IMG/VR virus record: IMGVR_UViG_3300044619_002192
Location: 1 to 22,177 of that record
Length of the DNA stretch: 22,177 bases
DNA from: a virus
Direction: 5' to 3' (one strand)
The position numbers and the translations under genes are program-made. The notes under the pieces are model-generated. The model did not search any database and had not been told where the DNA came from. It was given only the letters and a program-made list of their open reading frames with translations. Shown piece after piece: positions 5,112 through 21,466 of this stretch (position 1 is the first letter of the stretch; each line of letters opens with the position of its first letter).

Positions 5112-5984
5112 ATGGCAGTAACCGACAGGCAGCTTGAAATAATCCGGGAGATTCAGAGGCTTCAGGCATCGCTTGAAAAGCAGATGGATGACAGTTTACC
5201 GGTTGTCTTCAAAGACTTGTCGAATCAGGTTATTGAACTGACCAACGACATTCCGCTGGACCCAAAAAACAGGGCCGCAAACATCCGGGCGATTATTTCT
5301 CTCAAACATCAGATCGCAGCAACGATTTCAACAAATCCGGAGTACATTAAACAGGTTCAGGATTTGGTCAAAGGGTTCCGGGAAATCAAGAATCTTTCGG
5401 ACAGTTATTTCAGCACTTTGATTGATGGCTATAATGCTAAGGAAGAATTGTACCAAGAAATTTTGAAGGCCAATATTTCAGTGGTCAGGGATCGATTGAT
5501 TGGCGGGGAGATTAAGGAGAATTTTAAGAATGCGATAACGGAGGTGCTAAATGCAAATGCAGCCGGACAAACAAATCGTACTGAATTGCAGAAGGTTCTA
5601 AAAAACTTCATTGAAGGAACGCCACAGCAGAAAGCTTATTTGGAGCGTTACATAAAACAAACCACATCGGATTCAATAATGGGCTTCTCCAGGGAATACA
5701 ATCAGACCATAGCCACAGACTTGAATCTGCAATATTATTTCTACGCAGGAACGCTAATCGAAGATTCCCGGCAATTCTGCAAAGCAAGAGCAGGACGTTA
5801 CTTCAAAAAGTCAGAGGTTCAATCTTGGGCAAAACTCAAAGGCTGGGATGGCAGAATGCCTGGGACCAATGAAGTTACTATTTTTTCCTTTTTAGGTGGA
5901 TTTGGTTGCCGCCACGACATTTATCCGATTACAAAGACCCAATACCTTTTGGCTCAAAAAAGGGGATTGGCAGGATTGAAGTAA
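5112..5984 (+). CDS. Minor head protein, Mu F-like (SPP1 gp7-like) head morphogenesis
   Basis: A 290-aa head morphogenesis protein. Residues 1-210 are mostly helical (NRTELQKVLKNFIEGTPQQK, ERYIKQTTSDSIMGFSREYN), and the C-terminal ~80 residues carry the signature of the Phage Mu F-like family (PF04233): YFYAGTLIEDSRQFCKARAG at ~209-228, then a short loop and GGFGCRHDIYPI at ~262-273, with Cys223, Cys266 and His268 as probable metal ligands. Proteins of this family bind the portal and are packaged in a few copies per capsid. In most tailed phages the gene follows the portal; here it does as well, except for the methyltransferase gene inserted between them. The ATG at 5112 directly follows a -7 box, which supports this start. 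Confidence 0.85.
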   Translation: MAVTDRQLEIIREIQRLQASLEKQMDDSLPVVFKDLSNQVIELTNDIPLDPKNRAANIRAIISLKHQIAATISTNPEYIKQVQDLVKGFREIKNLSDSYFSTLIDGYNAKEELYQEILKANISVVRDRLIGGEIKENFKNAITEVLNANAAGQTNRTELQKVLKNFIEGTPQQKAYLERYIKQTTSDSIMGFSREYNQTIATDLNLQYYFYAGTLIEDSRQFCKARAGRYFKKSEVQSWAKLKGWDGRMPGTNEVTIFSFLGGFGCRHDIYPITKTQYLLAQKRGLAGLK

Positions 5985-6754: not shown

Positions 6755-7786
6755 ATGTCCTGTTTAACTGACTTTATCGGACTCCGCTCCTGCACAACTG
6801 AAGAACCTATTTCAGGTTTGTGGATCAATGACTATCCGGGTATGTCCTCTGAACTACTGGAAAAGATTGCCAGTCAGGATCAGGTAACCTACCTGGGCGT
6901 TTGGGCATCCGTTCAACGCCAGGCTTACCAGAAGCTCAAGACCGACATTCAGACTGTTTTAGCGGATATGGCAAACGCCAGACTGGACCAGGTTATTTTT
7001 CAGACCTCAAAGGTCTTCAATCAGCAATGGCAGCAGATCGACCCCGTTGGACCAGAAGCGAAATACAAGGGGATCTTTGCTTCGATTGCTGGAGGTAAGT
7101 ACATCGGGCTTCGGGTTAAAAATGCTTATGTCTATAATTCCGGGGAAGTTGATGTGGAAATCACAATCAAATACTTTCAGGCTCAGGATTGCAAGTTGCT
7201 GTACGAAAAGGAAGCGACCGTGGTTCCTGGCATGAACACCATACCAATAAACCAAATCCTGTATTCAGATTTCGACAAAATCAACATTGCCCAGTTGGTT
7301 GACTGTACAAACCTTCCAACGCTGAACGGTGCTTTTATTGATTATGGATGGGGATGGTTTAACCAGGAATGCGCAACACGGTTTTCATGGTGGTTTACCC
7401 AAGGATGGTCAAACTTTCCTATTTCGGCTCCTCTTGATTATGGCTTAGGCGTAAATTGGAACAACGACAACCAATCAGGGATTTATTGGGATGCAGAACT
7501 AATGTGCAGTCTGGATTCGTTTATTTGTTCGGAAAGGAATTACTTAGTAGATGCCTGGGCCAGATTGCTATGCGCTGAAATCCTGCGAACCAAATTGGCA
7601 TCGCAACGGTTCAACTATTTCACCCAGGGTAACCGTGAAATAACCGAAAGAAACCAAGCTACGTTTCTGCAGGAATATCAGGCTGCCCTAAAAGGATGGG
7701 CAAGGCAGTTGAACCTTGATCGGGAAACGCTTTGTTTTAATTGTGAGGATTCCGCTTTGATTCAGCAGGTGCAGAAGATGCCATAA
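6755..7786 (+). CDS. Conserved Bacteroidetes-phage virion-region protein
   Basis: A 343-aa protein beginning MSCLTDFIGLRSCTTEEPIS, followed by GLWINDYPGMSSELLEKIA and an aromatic, helical middle. The N-terminal pattern (short Cys-containing start, then INDxPG) is one I associate with a family found in Bacteroidetes phages among tail or neck genes; its function is not established. Residues ~240-343 are helical with paired cysteines (MCSLDSFICSERN, LCFNCEDS). There is no signal peptide or membrane segment. It stands alone between the small minus-strand pair and the minus-strand glycan operon, and is closed by a bidirectional terminator. A -7-like box TATTTTCG lies about 15 bases before the ATG, similar to TATCTTCG before the gene at 6001. 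Confidence 0.7.
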   Translation: MSCLTDFIGLRSCTTEEPISGLWINDYPGMSSELLEKIASQDQVTYLGVWASVQRQAYQKLKTDIQTVLADMANARLDQVIFQTSKVFNQQWQQIDPVGPEAKYKGIFASIAGGKYIGLRVKNAYVYNSGEVDVEITIKYFQAQDCKLLYEKEATVVPGMNTIPINQILYSDFDKINIAQLVDCTNLPTLNGAFIDYGWGWFNQECATRFSWWFTQGWSNFPISAPLDYGLGVNWNNDNQSGIYWDAELMCSLDSFICSERNYLVDAWARLLCAEILRTKLASQRFNYFTQGNREITERNQATFLQEYQAALKGWARQLNLDRETLCFNCEDSALIQQVQKMP

Positions 7787-7838: not shown

Positions 7839-8534
7839 CTAATTCATAAGCTGGTAATTGTGTTTTCGCAGTATGTAGTCATAATTTTTGTGGTTTGACT
7901 CATCAGGTCTGCGGATGTAAATATGCGGGTCTTTGCACTTTAATTCAAGCAATTCCAAAAGGTAAATGATTGAAGTGCTGACGGTGTGAATCTCTGTGGC
8001 TTTTTCAATAACCAAGGACCAATCAAACAAACTGAATCCTGAATACTCTTGCATTTCGACAATCTGCAACCCAGAATCAGGTTTTATTTGAACGGCTTTA
8101 TTGCCTACGCTGGTAAAGTTTCGATTGACAAGGCAAAACGGTTCATCTGGATTTGAAACAACCAAATCAAAAAGATGCAGTTCTTTTTCCATGTTTCTGC
8201 AATAAGTTGAATGGTTCCATGTCTTCCAATCAAGTTGGTACATATCGTACTTGGACCTCATGCAGAATTGATAGGGCACTCTTTGAATCTGATCAGCAAA
8301 CCGGATAGGGATTATTCGATTGTTCTGGATTGCTTGGTCCCTTTTAATATTTTCCCAGGTTCCGGGAATAATGCCAGTAGGAATCCATGTTATATCCGGG
8401 TAAGCTGCTTTCAGCCCTGGCAAGAACTTATCAAGCACCGGCCACACTATAGGACCATTGGCAATCTCTTTAATCAGTTGTTGGCAAAAGATATGGTCCC
8501 CAATCCCGTGAGGCTGTAATACAATGTTATTCAT
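7839..8534 (-). CDS. GT-B-like glycosyltransferase (family 9-like)
   Basis: A 231-aa protein starting MNNIVLQPHGIGDHIFCQQL. The GxGD motif right after the first strand is characteristic of GT-B enzymes related to family 9 (heptosyltransferase-like), where it contacts the acceptor or donor. Near the C-terminus VIEKATEIHTVSTSIIYLLE resembles the nucleotide-sugar part of these enzymes, where a conserved segment places a serine at the donor phosphate. It is shorter than a full heptosyltransferase (about 320-350 aa), so either a compact version or partly degenerate. The ATG at 8534 is preferred over a TTG nine bases upstream; it overlaps the end of the preceding glycosyltransferase gene by eight bases. 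It is the last gene of the operon. Sugar and acceptor are unknown. Confidence 0.65.
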   Translation of the reverse strand: MNNIVLQPHGIGDHIFCQQLIKEIANGPIVWPVLDKFLPGLKAAYPDITWIPTGIIPGTWENIKRDQAIQNNRIIPIRFADQIQRVPYQFCMRSKYDMYQLDWKTWNHSTYCRNMEKELHLFDLVVSNPDEPFCLVNRNFTSVGNKAVQIKPDSGLQIVEMQEYSGFSLFDWSLVIEKATEIHTVSTSIIYLLELLELKCKDPHIYIRRPDESNHKNYDYILRKHNYQLMN

Positions 8535-9186
8535 CGAAGTCAAAAGCTATATCTGGATTTTTTAAGTGTTTGCCTTCTTCGATTCCAATATGCTGAACGA
8601 CTGAAGGCTTTGAAACAATAAAAGGGGATTTGCTTCGGGAACAAACATTCCAATCCCAATGTCCGGAGCTTTTTAGCGCAGGAAAAACAATGGTCTGAAA
8701 CTGCGGCAAATTGAAAAACATATTGATTCCTCCAATAGTCTTTTTAGTAACGTAATCGCCAAAAGAATCAATGGTCTTATGCCTTATTTGCAAGGTCTTT
8801 GAATCAACTGTCTGAGTATTAAACCCGGAAACAATATTTCCCAAAAACCGAAGTTTAAGGTCGAAAAGAACCTCAAAGAAGTTTGGCTTTACAATAGCGT
8901 CGCTGTCCAGGATCATTAAAAAAGTGCATCCATTTTTTATTGCCTCGTTTAAGCCAGTCAGGATTGCTTTGGAAACGCCAAAGTTTCGGGGGTGGTTGTG
9001 TATAAAAACCGGGAAACCCTGTGCCCTAAACTCGTTCAGAATGATTGGAATAGTCGGATCAGAACTTCCATCATTTACGACGTAGAATTCAATCTCATGC
9101 GGATACTTAGCCAATGCCAAGGATTCAAAACATTGCTTCACGTACTGAGGCCGATTGAATACAGGAATAACTATGCCCGTTTTCAT
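8527..9186 (-). CDS. Family 2 glycosyltransferase
   Basis: A 219-aa GT-A glycosyltransferase. It begins with the family-2 signature MKTGIVIPVFNRPQYVKQCF, has the nucleotide-binding VVNDGSSD at ~36-43 and the metal-binding DSD at 94-96 (FLMILDSDAIVKPNFF). This is the catalytic core only, without membrane segments, so it is a soluble enzyme using a nucleotide-activated sugar. A 4-base ATGA overlap with the FkbM gene upstream and an 8-base overlap with the gene downstream show translational coupling within the operon. The sugar and acceptor cannot be read from sequence. Confidence 0.88.
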   Translation of the reverse strand: MKTGIVIPVFNRPQYVKQCFESLALAKYPHEIEFYVVNDGSSDPTIPIILNEFRAQGFPVFIHNHPRNFGVSKAILTGLNEAIKNGCTFLMILDSDAIVKPNFFEVLFDLKLRFLGNIVSGFNTQTVDSKTLQIRHKTIDSFGDYVTKKTIGGINMFFNLPQFQTIVFPALKSSGHWDWNVCSRSKSPFIVSKPSVVQHIGIEEGKHLKNPDIAFDFDE

Positions 9187-9875
9187 GGGTAAAATAAAAA
9201 GCTATGGTTCCCGGCATTGACCTGAGCGCAAAAACCCGCAAAGCTGAACTTTTGACCATTAAGGTCTTCGCAAGTATAGAAGTCAAATAGAGGCTCTATT
9301 GATTCCAAAAAGTTGTCGAATTCAGGAATCCAGGCAGGATGAAAACTGACGTACATTGGTGGTTTCAGTTTTCGCAGGATTTCGATTGAATGCGGCAAAA
9401 CCAAAGATTCACCACCTTCAATGTCCATTTTGATTAGGCCGATTTGCCCTGCAAAATATTCTTTTAGAATCCTTTCCAGAGTAATGCACCGTACTTCTGT
9501 TGGCTCCAAGTGTTCATCCCTTTTTAAGGCACTACTCATTGAGTCCCCCGTATTCCCGTAAAACTCCGTTCTGCCTTCAAAGTCAGAAACTACCATCTGC
9601 CAAAGCATAGCATTTTCAATGCTATTTATTTGGATGTTTCTTTTGAGAATATTAAAGGCCATGTAATCTGGTTCAATCGCCAAAACCTGACGAAACAACT
9701 TTGATGCAGGGAGAGAAACAACTCCGTTCCATGCTCCAATATCAATGAAGTCTTTTTCCTTGTCTGCAAAGCGGTTTAAAACATCAAAGGTCTTCGTTTC
9801 CCAATGGGGCAAAGTAGGCCAAAACCATTCATGGCCATCAACCACAAAATTTTCATTGTTAATCGTTACCTTCAT
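9183..9875 (-). CDS. FkbM-family SAM-dependent methyltransferase
   Basis: A 230-aa methyltransferase of the FkbM type. The SAM-binding motif I is FIDIGAWNGVVSLPASKLF (DIGAWNG at 45-51), motif II acidic residue is in LAIEPD (67-70), and the FkbM-typical IGLIKMDIEGGESLVLPHSI follows at about 150-169, then PPMYVSFHP. FkbM enzymes methylate hydroxyl groups of sugars or polyketides, which fits its place between glycosyltransferase genes: it probably caps or modifies a sugar added by its neighbours. It overlaps the upstream methyltransferase gene by 17 bases and the downstream GT2 gene by 4 bases. Confidence 0.85.
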   Translation of the reverse strand: MKVTINNENFVVDGHEWFWPTLPHWETKTFDVLNRFADKEKDFIDIGAWNGVVSLPASKLFRQVLAIEPDYMAFNILKRNIQINSIENAMLWQMVVSDFEGRTEFYGNTGDSMSSALKRDEHLEPTEVRCITLERILKEYFAGQIGLIKMDIEGGESLVLPHSIEILRKLKPPMYVSFHPAWIPEFDNFLESIEPLFDFYTCEDLNGQKFSFAGFCAQVNAGNHSFLFYP

Positions 9876-10365
9876 ACTTGCAGTATATTACAGAGAAAGA
9901 ATCATTTAGATCGCCATCCGAAACAAAGAAATGCTCAAAGTCTTCCCGGCTGTTCAGATAATTGTAAACAATCTTTGGCGTTAAATAATGAATGTGTTTA
10001 CGGTTGTTCCACGGCCTCCAGTAGTGCTGTTCATCCATGTTTGGAAGATAGAGGAAAAGAACTCCTCCCGGCTTCAATTCAGAAATCCAGTAATCTAAAG
10101 CTTCAACCCAATTTGGCAAGTGTTCGAGGCAATGTGAGGAAAAAATGTAGTCCAATTCCTTTGGAAGATGGAAGGCATGGTATTCATCGTTTATTGTAAT
10201 GTCCACCGGTATTGCACCAGGGAAAGCCCATTCTGGCCTGTTGCATCCAATATCAACTCCTTTGCCAAGGCATACCTTTTGAGCAAAGGGAAAAGCAAAC
10301 TGAGCCGCAAAGCCTTCGGCCTGAAATGCTGGATAAATCTGGTCTTTAAATTCAATTATCTTCAT
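9859..10365 (-). CDS. Class I SAM methyltransferase (type 11-like)
   Basis: A 168-aa protein with a methyltransferase fold: GKGVDIGCNRPEWAFPGAIP supplies motif I (VDIGC at 37-41) and the following acidic strand end, LDYIFSSHCLEHLPNWVEAL is the motif IV/EHL segment typical of Methyltransf_11 proteins, and LKPGGVLFLYLPN is the post-motif strand. The ATG at 10365 (MKIIEFKDQIYPAF) is chosen; a TTG further upstream would add 15 residues that overlap the preceding gene and look spurious. It overlaps the 92-aa gene by 14 bases. In glycan clusters such proteins act on sugars or sugar-linked groups; the substrate here is unknown. Confidence 0.8.
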   Translation of the reverse strand: MKIIEFKDQIYPAFQAEGFAAQFAFPFAQKVCLGKGVDIGCNRPEWAFPGAIPVDITINDEYHAFHLPKELDYIFSSHCLEHLPNWVEALDYWISELKPGGVLFLYLPNMDEQHYWRPWNNRKHIHYLTPKIVYNYLNSREDFEHFFVSDGDLNDSFSVIYCKYEGND

Positions 10366-10630
10366 CTTCAATATCTGATTCTCTTTCTCCAAAATAAGTT
10401 GGGACAACAAGGTCTTTATTCACATCCTCGAGCAAAGAACGGCTTTTGCCCATTATAGTGCGAATCTGAATTTCACTCACTCCAAAAGCCTTAGATTGCT
10501 GTGAAATCAAATCAGCCTTGATAATCCGGCCTTTCTTTATTTGATCTATTGAGGTTATGCAGTCCTCGATTGCCTGTGCATATTGGTTTGGGGTGAACTT
10601 TTCACGCCAGGGTAAGAGTGGGATAATCAT
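10352..10630 (-). CDS. Small helical protein of unknown function
   Basis: A 92-aa protein with two or three helices (TPNQYAQAIEDCITSIDQIK; AFGVSEIQIRTIMGKSRSLL) and an acidic end (ERESDIEDEDN). The central part could be a small helix-turn-helix but no family is recognised. It overlaps the upstream 116-aa gene by four bases (ATGA) and the downstream methyltransferase by 14 bases, so it is translated as part of the operon. Whether it serves the glycan pathway is not visible. Confidence 0.6.
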   Translation of the reverse strand: MIIPLLPWREKFTPNQYAQAIEDCITSIDQIKKGRIIKADLISQQSKAFGVSEIQIRTIMGKSRSLLEDVNKDLVVPTYFGERESDIEDEDN

Positions 10631-10977
10631 TTTGTTTCTTCGGTTTTAAATGCGAGTTCGGTTCCTGTCAAAGCGAAAAAAAGGTTCTGGACTTGGTGGA
10701 CAAACTTTATTTCTGTTCCATAAAAGGCAGAAAGCTGTTCATGGTAAAAGACAAATCCGTCTTTATTTGATTGCAGTTGGTAGTCAAAGTGGTCTGAATA
10801 AAAAGTATTTTTCTCCTGCACAAACCCCGCCCTCAGTAACCATTCTTCGGTTAATGGCAAAGGCTCAAAATGTTCCTTTTCCGAACAAACCAAAATCCCA
10901 TAGGCATTCACCTGTATTGGATGTTGATAATCTGGGTGCTTTACCCAATTACGAATGCGTAATTCTTCTGCTTTCAT
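10627..10977 (-). CDS. Conserved Bacteroidetes-phage protein of unknown function
   Basis: A 116-aa protein opening MKAEELRIRNWVKH and carrying PLPLTEEWLLRAGF and VHQVQNLFFALTGTEL. I recognise this pattern (ExLRIGNWV ... PLTEEWLLKFGF ... VHQLQNLYFALTG) as a very common hypothetical protein of Bacteroidetes phages and prophages. Its function has not been established as far as I know. It is not a glycan enzyme by any visible motif. Its ATG overlaps by four bases the stop of a truncated reading frame (10974-11099) left behind beside the HNH gene, which suggests that it was originally coupled to the gene upstream. Confidence 0.8.
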   Translation of the reverse strand: MKAEELRIRNWVKHPDYQHPIQVNAYGILVCSEKEHFEPLPLTEEWLLRAGFVQEKNTFYSDHFDYQLQSNKDGFVFYHEQLSAFYGTEIKFVHQVQNLFFALTGTELAFKTEETK

Positions 10978-11072
10978 TTCTCTTTTAATTTTCGTTGTTC
11001 AAAAAAATCTTTGTGTTCGGGAAAATTCCCGGTAAAAAGTCTGCTGTAATAGCTGGAAAAGTTGTTGTTTTT
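10974..11072 (-). pseudogene. Severed C-terminal end of an upstream gene, probably the glycosyltransferase at 11679
   Basis: Just after the HNH stop codon, a frame without its own start runs on to a TGA that overlaps the next gene's ATG by four bases, exactly the junction style of the other genes in this operon. The frame encodes about 32 residues including SSYYSRLFTGNFPEHKDFF and a basic end (EQRKLKEK), with coding-like composition. It is open back to 11099 inside the HNH gene, then meets TAA. It is in the same frame as the glycosyltransferase gene that ends abruptly at 11679 on the other side of the HNH unit. The simplest reading is that the HNH unit entered that gene near its 3' end and left this tail behind. 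That it belonged to the glycosyltransferase, and not to another lost gene, is inference. Confidence 0.55.
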
Positions 11073-11556
11073 AGATATTTTTCCAAGTTCTTTTTGTTTT
11101 TATGTTCCAAATAGTAGAAGCATAAACATTGTATTGTTTGCTTAGTTTTAAACAGGACAATTCTGATTGCCGTATTTGCAAAACAATTTCTTTGTTTAAT
11201 TTTTGCACCTTTCCTTTCCTGCCTATTCCCTTTTTTAATATTTTAATCTTATGGTTTATATTTTCTGTATGGGTAGCCCATTCAAGATTTTGGACAATAT
11301 TATTATATGGATTTCCGTCAATATGATTTACGGTCCTTTTGTTTTCAGGGTTTTCTAAAAAAGTTTTTGCTATTAATCGATGAACCAAATGAATAGTAAT
11401 TTCCTTGGCCTTACTAAGCCTAACATGGTGATACTTCGTCCCTTTTTGGGGCTTTAGGATTCTTTTTTGCCGGTAAGTTGATTTTATCCTTCCTAAAGAA
11501 CTTGCTTGGTAAACTCCTTCGTATCCGGGAATGTCTTTCCAAATTTCATTTTCCAT
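11071..11556 (-). CDS. HNH homing endonuclease (NUMOD4-HNH-HTH)
   Basis: A 161-aa endonuclease. NUMOD4 at residues 1-26 (MENEIWKDIPGYEGVYQASS, LGRIKS); HNH core at ~56-92 (LVHRLIAKTFLENP, TVNHIDGNPYNN, NLEWAT) with His59, His78, Asp80 and Asn82 as likely catalytic and metal residues; and a C-terminal helix-turn-helix (~118-160, IRQSELSCLKLSKQYNVYA) that reads DNA. Such proteins cut intron- or intein-less alleles and spread their own gene. The ATG at 11556 begins exactly at the domain start. An in-frame ATG at 11646 would add 30 residues (MKTLKTFAPSVLPIPVRESD...), and since the promoter is only about 16 bases before it, either that longer form or a leader peptide is possible. The gene is visibly more AT-rich than its neighbours, which fits recent arrival. 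Confidence 0.88.
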   Translation of the reverse strand: MENEIWKDIPGYEGVYQASSLGRIKSTYRQKRILKPQKGTKYHHVRLSKAKEITIHLVHRLIAKTFLENPENKRTVNHIDGNPYNNIVQNLEWATHTENINHKIKILKKGIGRKGKVQKLNKEIVLQIRQSELSCLKLSKQYNVYASTIWNIKTKRTWKNI

Positions 11557-11657
11557 AAAAAAAGATTGCCCCGACTGTAAAGGCTCGTCCGACTCCCGAA
11601 CGGGAATAGGCAATACAGAAGGGGCAAAAGTTTTTAATGTTTTCATATCGGACGAGC
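11557..11657 (-). promoter_or_regulatory. Structured leader with terminator ahead of the HNH gene
   Basis: Read 5' to 3' on the minus strand: arm a GCTCGTCCGA (11657-11648); ATG of a short ORF (11646); arm t TTGCCCCTTCTGTA (11627-11614); hairpin TTCCCGTTCGGGAG (11606-11593); arm a' TCGGACGAGC (11592-11583); arm t' TACAGTCGGGGCAA (11579-11566); TCTTTTTTT; ATG of HNH (11556). a/a' is a perfect 10-bp helix. t/t' pairs as 7 bp plus 4 bp around a 3x3 internal loop and is followed by a U-run, so it is an intrinsic terminator whose last U touches the AUG. The two helices cross (a, t, a', t'), so they form a pseudoknot or compete. The arms are exact complements, so chance is unlikely; the mechanism is inferred. 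Confidence 0.65.
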
Positions 11658-11661
11658 AATG

Positions 11662-11669
11662 CAAAGATA
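11662..11669 (-). promoter_or_regulatory. Promoter -7 box for the HNH unit
   Basis: Minus strand TATCTTTG followed by C, a perfect TAnnTTTG match, lying about ten bases after the TGA of the glycosyltransferase gene (11679). Transcription would begin near 11656, at the start of leader arm a. The -33 box is poor. The HNH unit therefore has its own promoter inside the operon. Confidence 0.6.
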
Positions 11670-11678
11670 GCAAAATAA

Positions 11679-12362
11679 TCAATAAATGTGTCTGTTTTGA
11701 CCCAAATGCTTCACATACCCTCTCAACAAGGTAGCAGCCACAAACCCATTTCGCCAATAAACCTGACCGATCTGGCTTTCTGCCATCCAAGGTTTTGCTC
11801 TGTCCCATGTGCATTTCTCCGCATAGCCATTTGGGAATAGTCTTTGGTAATCCGATAGCCTACGAAGGCCAGGATTGAAAGAAAATCCCCTCCATTGACC
11901 TCTGGCATGAAGTTTTGAAAGGTGCTGGTAATGCGTCCGCAAATGCGTGTGAATCGGTCCAGATGCAGGATGTCCATTGCGGTCCTTTGGATCCCTTAAC
12001 CAGACCTGCATAACCTTTGGTTCGTGCTGAAGAATGTCCAGGCTGGATTGAATGAAGCTTGTTTGGTAAAACTCCCAATCGTCCTCGCAATGAAAAATGT
12101 ATGGCGTTTCTACCAGTGAATAAAGGCGATCAACAGCCGTTATTTGACCAACATTTTTACTGTCCGCATAAACTGTTACGGGGCAAAGGTTTCTGCAATA
12201 ATCTTTTATCAAATAAGTCATTTCCTGGCCTATTGAAACACCAGAGTCTTCATAAATATACAATGCTACTGGTTTTGGCCCATCCCAATGCTTTATCAGG
12301 CTTTCAATTGTTCTTGTCAGAAGGTCAAACCGACCGCACGAAGTCAAACAAACCGTAATCAT
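11679..12362 (-). CDS. GT-A glycosyltransferase-like protein, probably truncated at its C-terminus
   Basis: A 227-aa protein with a family-2-like start MITVCLTSCGRFDLLTRTIE, a donor-binding strand ending in YIYEDSGVS and the metal-binding segment YIFHCEDDWEFYQ (EDDW at 93-96), followed by an acceptor half with aromatic and His-rich loops (HTHLRTHYQHLSKL). This is a soluble nucleotide-sugar glycosyltransferase. It ends abruptly in KHLGQNRHIY just before the HNH unit's promoter, and a same-frame tail of about 32 residues survives beyond the HNH gene (10974-11072). The catalytic half is intact, so loss of this tail may or may not abolish activity. It overlaps the upstream 82-aa gene by four bases. 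Confidence 0.75.
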   Translation of the reverse strand: MITVCLTSCGRFDLLTRTIESLIKHWDGPKPVALYIYEDSGVSIGQEMTYLIKDYCRNLCPVTVYADSKNVGQITAVDRLYSLVETPYIFHCEDDWEFYQTSFIQSSLDILQHEPKVMQVWLRDPKDRNGHPASGPIHTHLRTHYQHLSKLHARGQWRGFSFNPGLRRLSDYQRLFPNGYAEKCTWDRAKPWMAESQIGQVYWRNGFVAATLLRGYVKHLGQNRHIY

Positions 12363-20350: not shown

Positions 20351-20358
20351 TATATTTG
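20351..20358 (+). promoter_or_regulatory. Promoter -7 box for the structured leader and 65-aa gene
   Basis: TATATTTG followed by C, a perfect TAnnTTTG box, nine bases after the coiled-coil stop. Start expected near 20364. The -33 box is weak. Confidence 0.55.
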
Positions 20359-20363
20359 CAATG

Positions 20364-20496
20364 TCGAAAGACCCGGATTGGAACCCCGGTAAAATAAGGT
20401 AAAAATGAAGATTTTTAAAGCCCCATTCGGTCGGTACTGTTCAGCGTGTTACCTCGCTGGTTCCAAACAGGAAAGCCGGATGGGGTTTTTGTTTTT
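20364..20496 (+). promoter_or_regulatory. Structured leader with terminator ahead of the 65-aa gene
   Basis: In order: arm a TTGGAACC (20378-20385); leader ORF start (20405); arm t GCCCCATTCGG (20420-20430); hairpin CAGCG/CGCTG (20442-20446 with 20455-20459), itself enclosed by CTGTT/AACAG (20437-20441 with 20466-20470); arm a' GGTTCCAA (20459-20466); arm t' CCGGATGGGG (20476-20485); TTTTTGTTTTT; ATG at 20497. t/t' is a 10-bp stem with one G-U pair, extended by A-U pairs, and the U-run touches the AUG. a/a' is 8 perfect pairs. The order a, t, a', t' is the same as in the HNH leader at 11557-11657, although the sequences differ. Confidence 0.65.
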
Positions 20497-20500
20497 ATGA
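20405..20500 (+). CDS. 31-aa leader peptide spanning the attenuator
   Basis: A short ORF beginning MKIFKAPFGRYCSACYLAGS and ending in GFLFL. Its TGA overlaps the ATG of the 65-aa gene (ATGA), so the peptide covers the whole terminator hairpin and ribosomes translating it would melt the stem. This supports a role as a leader peptide in attenuation or translational coupling; whether it is made is not known. A second possible ORF at 20361 (13 codons) probably starts before the transcription start and is not counted. Confidence 0.4.
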   Translation: MKIFKAPFGRYCSACYLAGSKQESRMGFLFL

Positions 20501-20694
20501 ATCTTTTATTAGAAGATCGAGCAGATGATTGGAAATTAGTAGTTACAATTTTTAGCGATTCAGTTTTGCTAAAAACAACAAATGGCGATTCTGTTTCAAT
20601 AGTTGATTTAGAAAGTGAAAATTTTTATAAGCTATGCAAACTTTATGTTTCATGGTATAATGAAGAGCCGGGGTTTGAACATTTAGTGTTTTAA
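20497..20694 (+). CDS. Small protein of unknown function under attenuator-like leader
   Basis: A 65-aa protein, MNLLLEDRADDWKLVVTIFS ... EEPGFEHLVF, acidic, probably beta-rich with a helical end (FYKLCKLYVSWYNEE). No domain is recognised. The gene is more AT-rich in its codons than the flanking genes, which suggests separate origin. The ATG at 20497 is chosen because the leader's U-run ends there and the leader ORF's TGA overlaps it; a longer frame from 20446 lies inside the hairpin and is not favoured. The next gene starts four bases after its stop. Confidence 0.6.
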   Translation: MNLLLEDRADDWKLVVTIFSDSVLLKTTNGDSVSIVDLESENFYKLCKLYVSWYNEEPGFEHLVF

Positions 20695-20698
20695 ATTT

Positions 20699-21466
20699 AT
20701 GGCTAAAGATCCAGCTTTCCTGTTTTACAGTTCCGATTTTTTGACAGGGACCATGTTTATGTCAAATGAGCAGGTTGGCCTATACATTCGGCTTTTGTGC
20801 GCTCAACATCAACATGGGGGGAGAATTGATACGAACGTATTACGAGCGCAATGCGATTCAATTACGAACGGGGCATCAGTGTATTCAAAATTTCAGCACG
20901 ACGAATCCGGGAGTTATTCTTTACGACTTGAAAAAGAGATGTTAATCCGTAAAGAAAAAGGCTTAAAAGCCAAAGAATCAGTGAATAAGAGATGGGAAAA
21001 ACATAGAAACGAAAGTAATACGAACGTATTACGTTCTGAAGGTGTAAATGAAAGTGTAAATGAAAGTGTAAATGAAACTGGAATTGTAATTAGGGATAGG
21101 GGTGCAGGGGAAAGGGTAAAAATCAAAACCGACACCTACGGACTTTTTGAACCCTTGGTAAAAAAATGGATTGACTACAAAAAAGCCGAACATCGGGAAA
21201 CCTACAAAACCCAGGCAACCCTGGATGAATTTGTAAAAAAGTTGATCGACTATTCTGGCGGGGATTTCCACAGATCCGAAAAGATTATTGACAATTCAAT
21301 CGCAAATCGGTGGAAGGGTATTTTCCCGGAAAAACCAAATGGTAAGCCAGAACCAAAAAAAGAATACCATCCTGACGGAACTGAAATGTCAGAGCAGGAA
21401 AGAAACCTTAAAGGGGTATTGGAATTGATAAAAAAGAAACACGCAAACAATGGAAGCAACTCGTAA
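20699..21466 (+). CDS. DUF1376-type replication protein
   Basis: A 255-aa protein. Its N-terminal part (FLFYSSDFLTGTMFMSNEQV, GLYIRLLCAQHQHGGRI) is the DUF1376-type winged-helix region found in phage replication-initiation proteins. The middle (~residues 95-130) is a variable, repeat-bearing linker (NVLRSEGVNESVNESVNETG), and the C-terminal part (YKTQATLDEFVKKLIDYSGG, KIIDNSIANRWKGIF) is the helical region seen at the end of DnaD/primosome-like phage proteins. It likely binds the origin and loads the helicase. The 12-bp tandem repeat and two palindromic 16-bp repeats lie within the gene, which recalls lambda O, where iterons lie inside the initiator gene. Confidence 0.75.
   Translation: MAKDPAFLFYSSDFLTGTMFMSNEQVGLYIRLLCAQHQHGGRIDTNVLRAQCDSITNGASVYSKFQHDESGSYSLRLEKEMLIRKEKGLKAKESVNKRWEKHRNESNTNVLRSEGVNESVNESVNETGIVIRDRGAGERVKIKTDTYGLFEPLVKKWIDYKKAEHRETYKTQATLDEFVKKLIDYSGGDFHRSEKIIDNSIANRWKGIFPEKPNGKPEPKKEYHPDGTEMSEQERNLKGVLELIKKKHANNGSNS
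20829..20844 (+). repeat. 16-bp palindrome-bearing repeat, copy 1
   Basis: ATACGAACGTATTACG, identical to 21018-21033; contains the inverted repeat ATACG-AA-CGTAT. It encodes TNVLR with the same codons in both copies. A shorter relative ATTACGAACG is at 20861-20870. Confidence 0.65.
21018..21033 (+). repeat. 16-bp palindrome-bearing repeat, copy 2
   Basis: Identical to 20829-20844. Here the flank also forms a second inverted repeat, GAACGT-ATT-ACGTTC. Followed after eight bases by the tandem 12-mers. Confidence 0.65.
21042..21077 (+). repeat. Three tandem 12-bp repeats (iteron-like)
   Basis: Three perfect copies of GTGTAAATGAAA inside the DUF1376-type gene, encoding repeated VNES. Possible binding sites for the protein itself at an internal origin; equally, a simple slippage expansion in a linker. 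Confidence 0.75.

Follow-up and report, generated by a model that had tools for sequence, protein, structure and literature searches.

The RNA leader encoded from position 20351 of the uncultivated virus record IMGVR_UViG_3300044619_002192 probably acts as an attenuator, a conditional intrinsic terminator that heads a phage replication operon. The loop region of its predicted terminator contains a complement to the first loop of the transcript, and in related leaders this arm pairing is conserved by covariation while the letters change.

The window, by which we mean the whole 22,177-base stretch analyzed, is an uncultivated virus record. Its genes include portal-like, RecT, exonuclease, and replication types, and its promoters are Bacteroidota-type. 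From its TAnnTTTG boxes, we infer that the host of the phage belongs to the Bacteroidota.

A Leader Ending at a Start Codon Heads a Replication Operon

A sequence-only reading had described a promoter box, an arm (a), a leader ORF, a terminator arm (t), a local hairpin (h), the complement of the first arm (a′), the second terminator arm (t′), a U-run, and an AUG within 20351-20500. Every one of these elements is present in that order, and two genes follow:

20351..20358, +, −7 promoter box TATATTTG, Bacteroidota consensus TAnnTTTG
20363..20372, +, small hairpin GUC-GAAA-GAC, from the predicted +1 onward (folding)
20373..20389, +, hairpin HP1, CCGG-AUUGGAACC-CCGG, with a 9-nt loop containing arm a (folding)
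20378..20385, +, arm a, TTGGAACC (sequence)
20405..20500, +, leader ORF MKIFKAPFGRYCSACYLAGSKQESRMGFLFL, 31 codons, whose TGA stop overlaps the downstream AUG (sequence)
20417..20430, +, t, 5′ arm of the terminator stem, AAAGCCCCATTCGG (sequence, folding)
20437..20440, +, t2, 5′ side of the inner stem, CTGT, pairing with 20467-20470 (folding)
20442..20459, +, h, internal hairpin CAGCG-TGTTACCT-CGCTG (folding)
20459..20466, +, arm a′, GGTTCCAA, reverse complement of a, between h and t2′ (sequence)
20476..20489, +, t′, 3′ arm of the terminator stem, CCGGATGGGGTTTT (sequence, folding)
20486..20496, +, U-run TTTTTGTTTTT, directly adjoining the AUG at 20497 (sequence)
20497..20694, +, 65-aa orphan gene, first after the leader (Pfam/PHROGs search)
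20699..21466, +, DnaD/primosomal-type replication gene (MAKDPAFLFY...), second after the leader (phrog_9327 primosomal protein, E 3.3e-11)

TAnnTTTG is the consensus of Bacteroidota promoters (PMC6847099, PMC9723704). Since this −7 box spans −12 to −5 (PMC9723704), +1 is predicted at 20363. Arm a is present as had been described, but it is presented in the 9-nt loop of the CCGG/CCGG hairpin rather than as a free strand, and the 20351 pairing is therefore one of loop to loop-side. Neither a (20378-20385) nor a′ (20459-20466) shares a base with t or t′. For RNA truncated just past a′, the minimum-energy fold (−23.3) includes the a-a′ helix; at full length the minimum-energy fold is the terminator (−43.6). 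Homologue searches with this leader returned identical copies only, all from its own phage species.

The first gene had been called an unrelated orphan. Its 65-aa product indeed has no match in Pfam or PHROGs, but the replication gene begins 4 nt past its end; by this arrangement the 20351 leader is the head of a predicted replication operon, which the earlier reader had missed. The 65-aa protein was considered as a component of the system and rejected, as it matches no family and does not align to the small proteins at the equivalent place in phages of family W, described below.

A Second Leader Precedes an HNH Gene

Reading the minus strand confirmed that the same order of elements stands before an HNH gene:

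11662..11669, −, −7 box TATCTTTG, with the predicted +1 at 11657 (sequence)
11648..11657, −, arm a, GCTCGTCCGA, whose first base is the predicted +1 (sequence)
11621..11627, −, t, TTGCCCC (sequence)
11595..11604, −, internal hairpin h, CCCGTTCGGG (sequence, folding)
11583..11592, −, arm a′, TCGGACGAGC (sequence)
11566..11572, −, t′, GGGGCAA, then a U-run and AUG (sequence)
11560..11657, −, whole HNH leader, member of the covarying family W (model R2 built without the window: 47.1 bits, E 1.7e-9)
11071..11556, −, NUMOD4/HNH endonuclease gene (NUMOD4 E 2.6e-15, HNH_3 E 2.6e-06)

As in the 20351 leader, the arms lie outside the terminator stem t/t′. The a-a′ helix is again in the minimum-energy fold of the RNA cut after a′ (−23.2), and the terminator is the full-length minimum (−30.7). 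The leader ORF here is fused in frame. The −7 box lies ~10 nt downstream of the stop of the preceding gene, and the HNH gene and its leader are inserted among a cluster of glycosyltransferase-like and methyltransferase-like genes, named by eye, at 7839-12362 (−).

Because the two leaders of the window align poorly to each other, a single model for both was dropped and separate families were modeled instead.

The Crossing Helix Covaries in Two Families

For family W, a pattern drawn from two leaders led to 31 contigs. Nearly all read GCU(arm)-AUGAAAA...-AUUGCC-hairpin-(arm′)-CUUU...-stem-U-run-AUG, with the motifs AUUGCC and AGCCUUU retained. The crossing helix is 9 bp long. Across 15 leaders with 12 different arm combinations, 134 of 135 arm pairs form; with a′ permuted, pairing averaged 78% and never exceeded 91%. 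As modeled, the arms and the terminator stem have no base in common. W members also keep an AUG right after arm a. The stop of the ORF that it opens varies in position and its frame changes (L318); in L017, the stop overlaps the downstream AUG, as it does in the 20351 leader.

Model R2, built from W without the window, recognizes the HNH leader at E 1.7e-9. Its second-best match in the window is the 20351 leader, at 13.5 bits and a nonsignificant E of 0.39, and this leader lacks both W motifs. The idea that the two leaders of the window demonstrably belong to one homologous family is thus not supported; they appear to share an architecture, not a proven ancestry. One contig, L319, holds two W leaders, at 5210-5306 (−) and 7584-7680 (−), with the arm pairs GACTATCCG/CGGATAGTC and GCTACCCAG/CTGGGTAGC, which precede a DUF6291-type gene and a long helicase-like gene. 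It was R2 that added a second leader here, its arm pair being wholly different from that of the first.

Leaders of family K1 open with a hairpin whose loop usually has 7 nt, followed by the linker AGAACUUAUU and by GCCC...GGGC-U-run-AUG, in which the loop of the inner hairpin is complementary. Members retain a 9x9 internal loop and the linker AGAACTTATT. We defined 13 distinct apical loops blind to the 5′ side, and 11 of them have a complement of at least 6 nt in the 5′ region (20,000 permutations: mean 1.3, maximum 8); the two exceptions are loops misplaced by the script, and both match by eye. In an alignment of ten K1 leaders, all seven kissing pairs form in every sequence, and in five of the seven both partners have changed. 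Offsetting the partners by one to three columns lowered total pairing from 100% to 29-47%. As modeled, the K1 crossing helix likewise uses no base of the terminator stem. The basal stem, 4-5 bp below the 9x9 internal loop, makes a weak terminator, and the fold with a-a′ forced is much less stable there. In K1, no AUG directly behind a opens an ORF. More than 50 leaders in the loci examined match R1, the K1 model; the window was among the sources and gave no match up to E 1.

By these alignments, covariation of the crossing helix is strong in both K1 and W. The proposal of an RNA class is supported: many leaders of uncultured phages combine this layout with unrelated sequence, and at least two families covary in the crossing helix.

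The Layout Recurs beyond Chance

For the 20351 leader, arm pairing has p = 0.011 when the 5′ part is shuffled with the terminator kept and 0.041 when the loop is shuffled. For the HNH leader, the same shuffles gave 0 and 0.04% (p < 0.0005 on both). The shuffling check proposed in the earlier reading comes out clearly for the HNH leader and modestly for the 20351 copy. Among 200 shuffled whole windows, seven contained at least one such leader and one contained two.

The general layout is common, occurring in dozens of uncultured phages with Bacteroidota-type-looking promoters. Relatives of the downstream replication gene in viral contigs (L009, L010, and L016-L019) have the same element order in quite different sequences. 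A scan that required only a terminator adjoining an AUG, with no arm requirement, found a crossing complement at p ≤ 0.05 in 27 of the 58 distinct upstreams from viral contigs that had enough sequence. Whole phage records, picked for holding leaders, yielded 21 matches scoring at least 11, compared to 1.3 in shuffled DNA. Among 51 distinct leaders, 24 begin their first element precisely at the predicted +1. As the search patterns demanded a T-run near the AUG, the class is partly defined by the search.

Other leader types were seen. In a third type (L019 3906-4000 and L009 ~2120-2230), a k-turn-like stem (GGAGGCA...UGCUGA) carries the variable arm as its apical loop; compensatory arm changes occur among L009, L010, and L018. 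In a further kissing type (L031, L035, L053, L060, L104, L030, L042, and L121), the loop of the first hairpin is framed by GCGRR...WCGA or similar, and its partner is the 7-nt loop at the tip of a long terminator stem.

Could the 20351 copy be a common phage terminator before a gene with an accidental 8-bp complement? Its modest p values (0.011-0.041), the W model's E of 0.39, and the failure of searches to find a diverged homologue would fit. However, this leader has the operon position, layout, hairpin-loop presentation, and promoter geometry of the covarying families, and this phage's other leader belongs significantly to W. We consider coincidence very unlikely. Taken alone, the 20351 leader is suggestive only; it becomes convincing through the class.

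Leaders Precede Replication and Endonuclease Genes

The earlier reading had called for a check of the downstream genes. K1 and W leaders head replication initiators of several unrelated N-terminal types (DnaD-like, Lin1244, and DUF6291) and NUMOD4-HNH genes; other first genes resemble HNH, GIY-YIG, or DNA methyltransferase genes, by eye only. In four W phages, the leader is followed by a small orphan of 71-78 aa and a replication-type gene, the same order as in the window, and the small proteins are not alike.

Leaders that are identical from approximately +1 to the AUG precede unrelated genes, and some such pairs also lack detectable upstream similarity. Because of this, the leader seems to travel or persist as a module. 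The proposal of a mobile leader holds in this sense of a portable module only. Identical 87-nt K1 leaders (L131, L072, L105, L119, and L074) stand before different replication genes; the L072 and L105 proteins have unlike N termini and similar C termini, as if N-terminal domains had been swapped just past the leader.

Rfam 15, searched at gathering and lax thresholds, contains no family that reaches threshold for these leaders; the best sub-threshold score was 18 of 50 bits. A SAM riboswitch reading of L019 was rejected, as the score was 13.4 bits against a threshold of 44.4 and probably reflects only a shared k-turn-like stem-loop. On one phage contig (L042 12672-12707, +), the abiF RNA (RF03085) scored just above threshold, at 37.7 versus 37 bits. 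A pattern of promoter, terminator, and AUG had zero matches in 84,980 bacterial genomes, and exact-pattern, BLAST, and model searches returned no relatives from 50,697 named phages or 72,556 plasmids. Of the 66 bacterial loci with a related replication gene, only one has a clear leader of this layout before that gene (L277 3866, +, in a Chitinophagaceae MAG).

The covariance-model search that had been suggested, run with models of the wider class (R1 and R2) in place of one built from the two leaders, finds many members. Under strict filters these models had zero matches in 395 sampled Bacteroidota genomes, a weak negative since the sample included no positive control genome. The claim that the class is undescribed agrees with Rfam, where no family lists these leaders. 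The class is a real kind of putative control element, apparently uncatalogued as far as Rfam 15 shows; priority is not certain. Fremin, Bhatt, and Kyrpides have reportedly described about ten thousand candidate structured RNAs in viruses.

A Kinetic Clamp on the Terminator Could Gate Replication Genes

Transcription probably begins at ~20363, and a stable predicted terminator hairpin and U-run end right at the AUG. Because the start codon directly follows the U-run, expression of the operon from the 20351 promoter would need read-through. How might this be controlled? A mutually exclusive attenuator was rejected: a/a′ lies outside t/t′ in both leaders of the window and, as modeled, in K1 and W. 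With no base shared between arms and terminator stem, a switch is not explained by simple mutual exclusion, and a-a′ and t-t′ can coexist in a pseudoknot or kissing complex.

Since a-a′ is most stable when the RNA is cut after a′ and the terminator wins at full length, in both leaders of the window, we infer a kinetic clamp. The 5′ arm would capture the terminator loop once it is transcribed, before the 3′ terminator arm exists, altering timely closure of the stem. In the direction that we favor, this pairing would slow closure and lead to read-through, and an occupied 5′ arm would restore termination. Alternatively, the clamp may produce a rigid, stable terminator. In K1, with its short basal stem, the clamp or a bound factor may instead be needed for termination. 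We consider a conditional terminator that gates early phage genes the most likely role of the leader.

A leader-peptide attenuator of the trp type was also rejected as a conserved feature, since in W the AUG is kept while frame and stop vary, and K1 is without such an ORF. For the same reasons, the suggestion that the leader peptides matter was not upheld. In W, a ribosome on the leader ORF could add control, though frame and stop are unconserved.

Another explanation is that the U-run is incidental and that initiation of the downstream gene is set either by structure adjoining the AUG or by ribosomes translating the leader ORF (ATGA overlap, coupling). Consistent with this, the ORF stop overlaps the AUG in the window and in L017, and W members keep the AUG after arm a. 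Initiation in F. johnsoniae is weakened by structure close to the start codon and strengthened by A at −3 and −6 (PMC6847099); the 20351 leader has U at both positions. However, the ORF stops of W vary and the frame changes (L318), the HNH ORF is fused in frame, and K1 has no ORF. Moreover, the combination of a G+C-rich stem with a U-run abutting the AUG is recurrent in the class, as expected of a terminator. We regard translational control as an unlikely main mechanism. A translational effect may be added to conditional termination, with base pairs predicted within ~15 nt of the AUG.

The arm pairing might instead only build the fold of a ligand- or protein-binding RNA, riboswitch-like or antiterminator-like, with the conserved internal loops and linkers as the sensor. 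The 9x9 internal loop and linker AGAACTTATT of K1 and the conserved AUUGCC and AGCCUUU of W are possible candidates, and the L019 and L009 types resemble a k-turn stem-loop, L019 with its weak SAM score of 13.4 bits. Against this, the conserved segments differ between the families, no Rfam family reaches threshold, and the downstream genes suggest no metabolite. We think such a sensor most unlikely.

Finally, the main product may be the terminated RNA itself: a short, stable molecule (~90-135 nt), with both ends locked by structure, that acts in trans on other copies of the leader. It would serve copy-number or superinfection control like the CI RNA of satellite phage P4, with the hypervariable loops setting specificity. 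Structure is present at both ends, at the 5′ end often exactly from +1; the leader heads replication operons, and the loops are hypervariable yet self-matching. Differing arms occur on one contig in the window, in L319 (GCTACCCAG versus GACTATCCG), and in G016, and L307 and L322 differ in arm a (the a′ of L322 lies outside the covered sequence). P4 also offers a precedent, in that its own replication genes are stopped by CI RNA-dependent premature termination (PMC4825925). However, the simplest pairing for complementary arms on the same RNA is in cis, and HNH and other genes that replication control does not need also carry the leader. In our judgment, an action in trans is unlikely.

In its strongest form, the terminated leader would be a trans-acting specificity RNA with a lineage-specific lock-and-key pair of 7-10-nt loops, through which the leader RNA of a resident phage shuts down the replication genes of co-infecting phages with the same loops. 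We consider this form quite unlikely; if true, a whole copy-number or superinfection system would reside in a ~100-nt leader exchanged between phages as a module.

Discussion

Little is known of how early genes are timed in phages with Bacteroidota-type promoters. A recurrent clamp, hypervariable yet covarying, on a terminator at the start codon of replication genes would be a concrete and easily tested control point. It would tie control of phage replication to recognition between RNA loops, of the kind seen in plasmid copy control and P4 immunity, and identical leaders before unrelated genes suggest a short regulatory RNA that moves between phages as a module.

Attenuators with mutually exclusive hairpins, such as those of B. 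subtilis trp, ribosomal-protein leaders, and T-box RNAs, similarly have a 5′ leader, an intrinsic terminator before the first codon, and an alternative pairing upstream. They differ in that the alternative arm here pairs with the loop of the terminator rather than with one of its arms, so that the helices are compatible, as in a pseudoknot.

The preQ1, SAM-II, and ZTP riboswitches have a compact pseudoknot in the 5′ leader that is coupled to a terminator or start codon, an arrangement that the leaders described here resemble. In contrast, our families share no conserved ligand-binding core and have no Rfam match at threshold, and the genes downstream are replication and endonuclease genes.

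The copy-number RNAs of ColE1-type plasmids control replication through fully complementary hairpin loops of ~7 nt whose sequence sets specificity. Loop length, specificity set by the loops, and a connection to replication control are shared with our leaders, but here both loops lie on one strand of one RNA, and there is no antisense transcript from the opposite strand.

Closest in setting are the P4 CI RNA in the seqA-seqC leader and the IsrK leader of Gifsy-1 (PMC4825925), phage leaders that stand before replication or early genes. In these systems, too, a short RNA results when transcription stops at a terminator inside the leader, read-through produces the mRNA, and the leader contains complementary segments. 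Our leaders show no sequence relation to isrK (model score 14.6 bits against a threshold of 50). They also differ in that the complement joins a 5′ loop to the terminator's own loop, covaries, and is hypervariable; in that the terminator abuts the AUG; and in that the carriers are uncultured phages with Bacteroidota-type promoters. The P4 CI RNA system is the nearest functional precedent.
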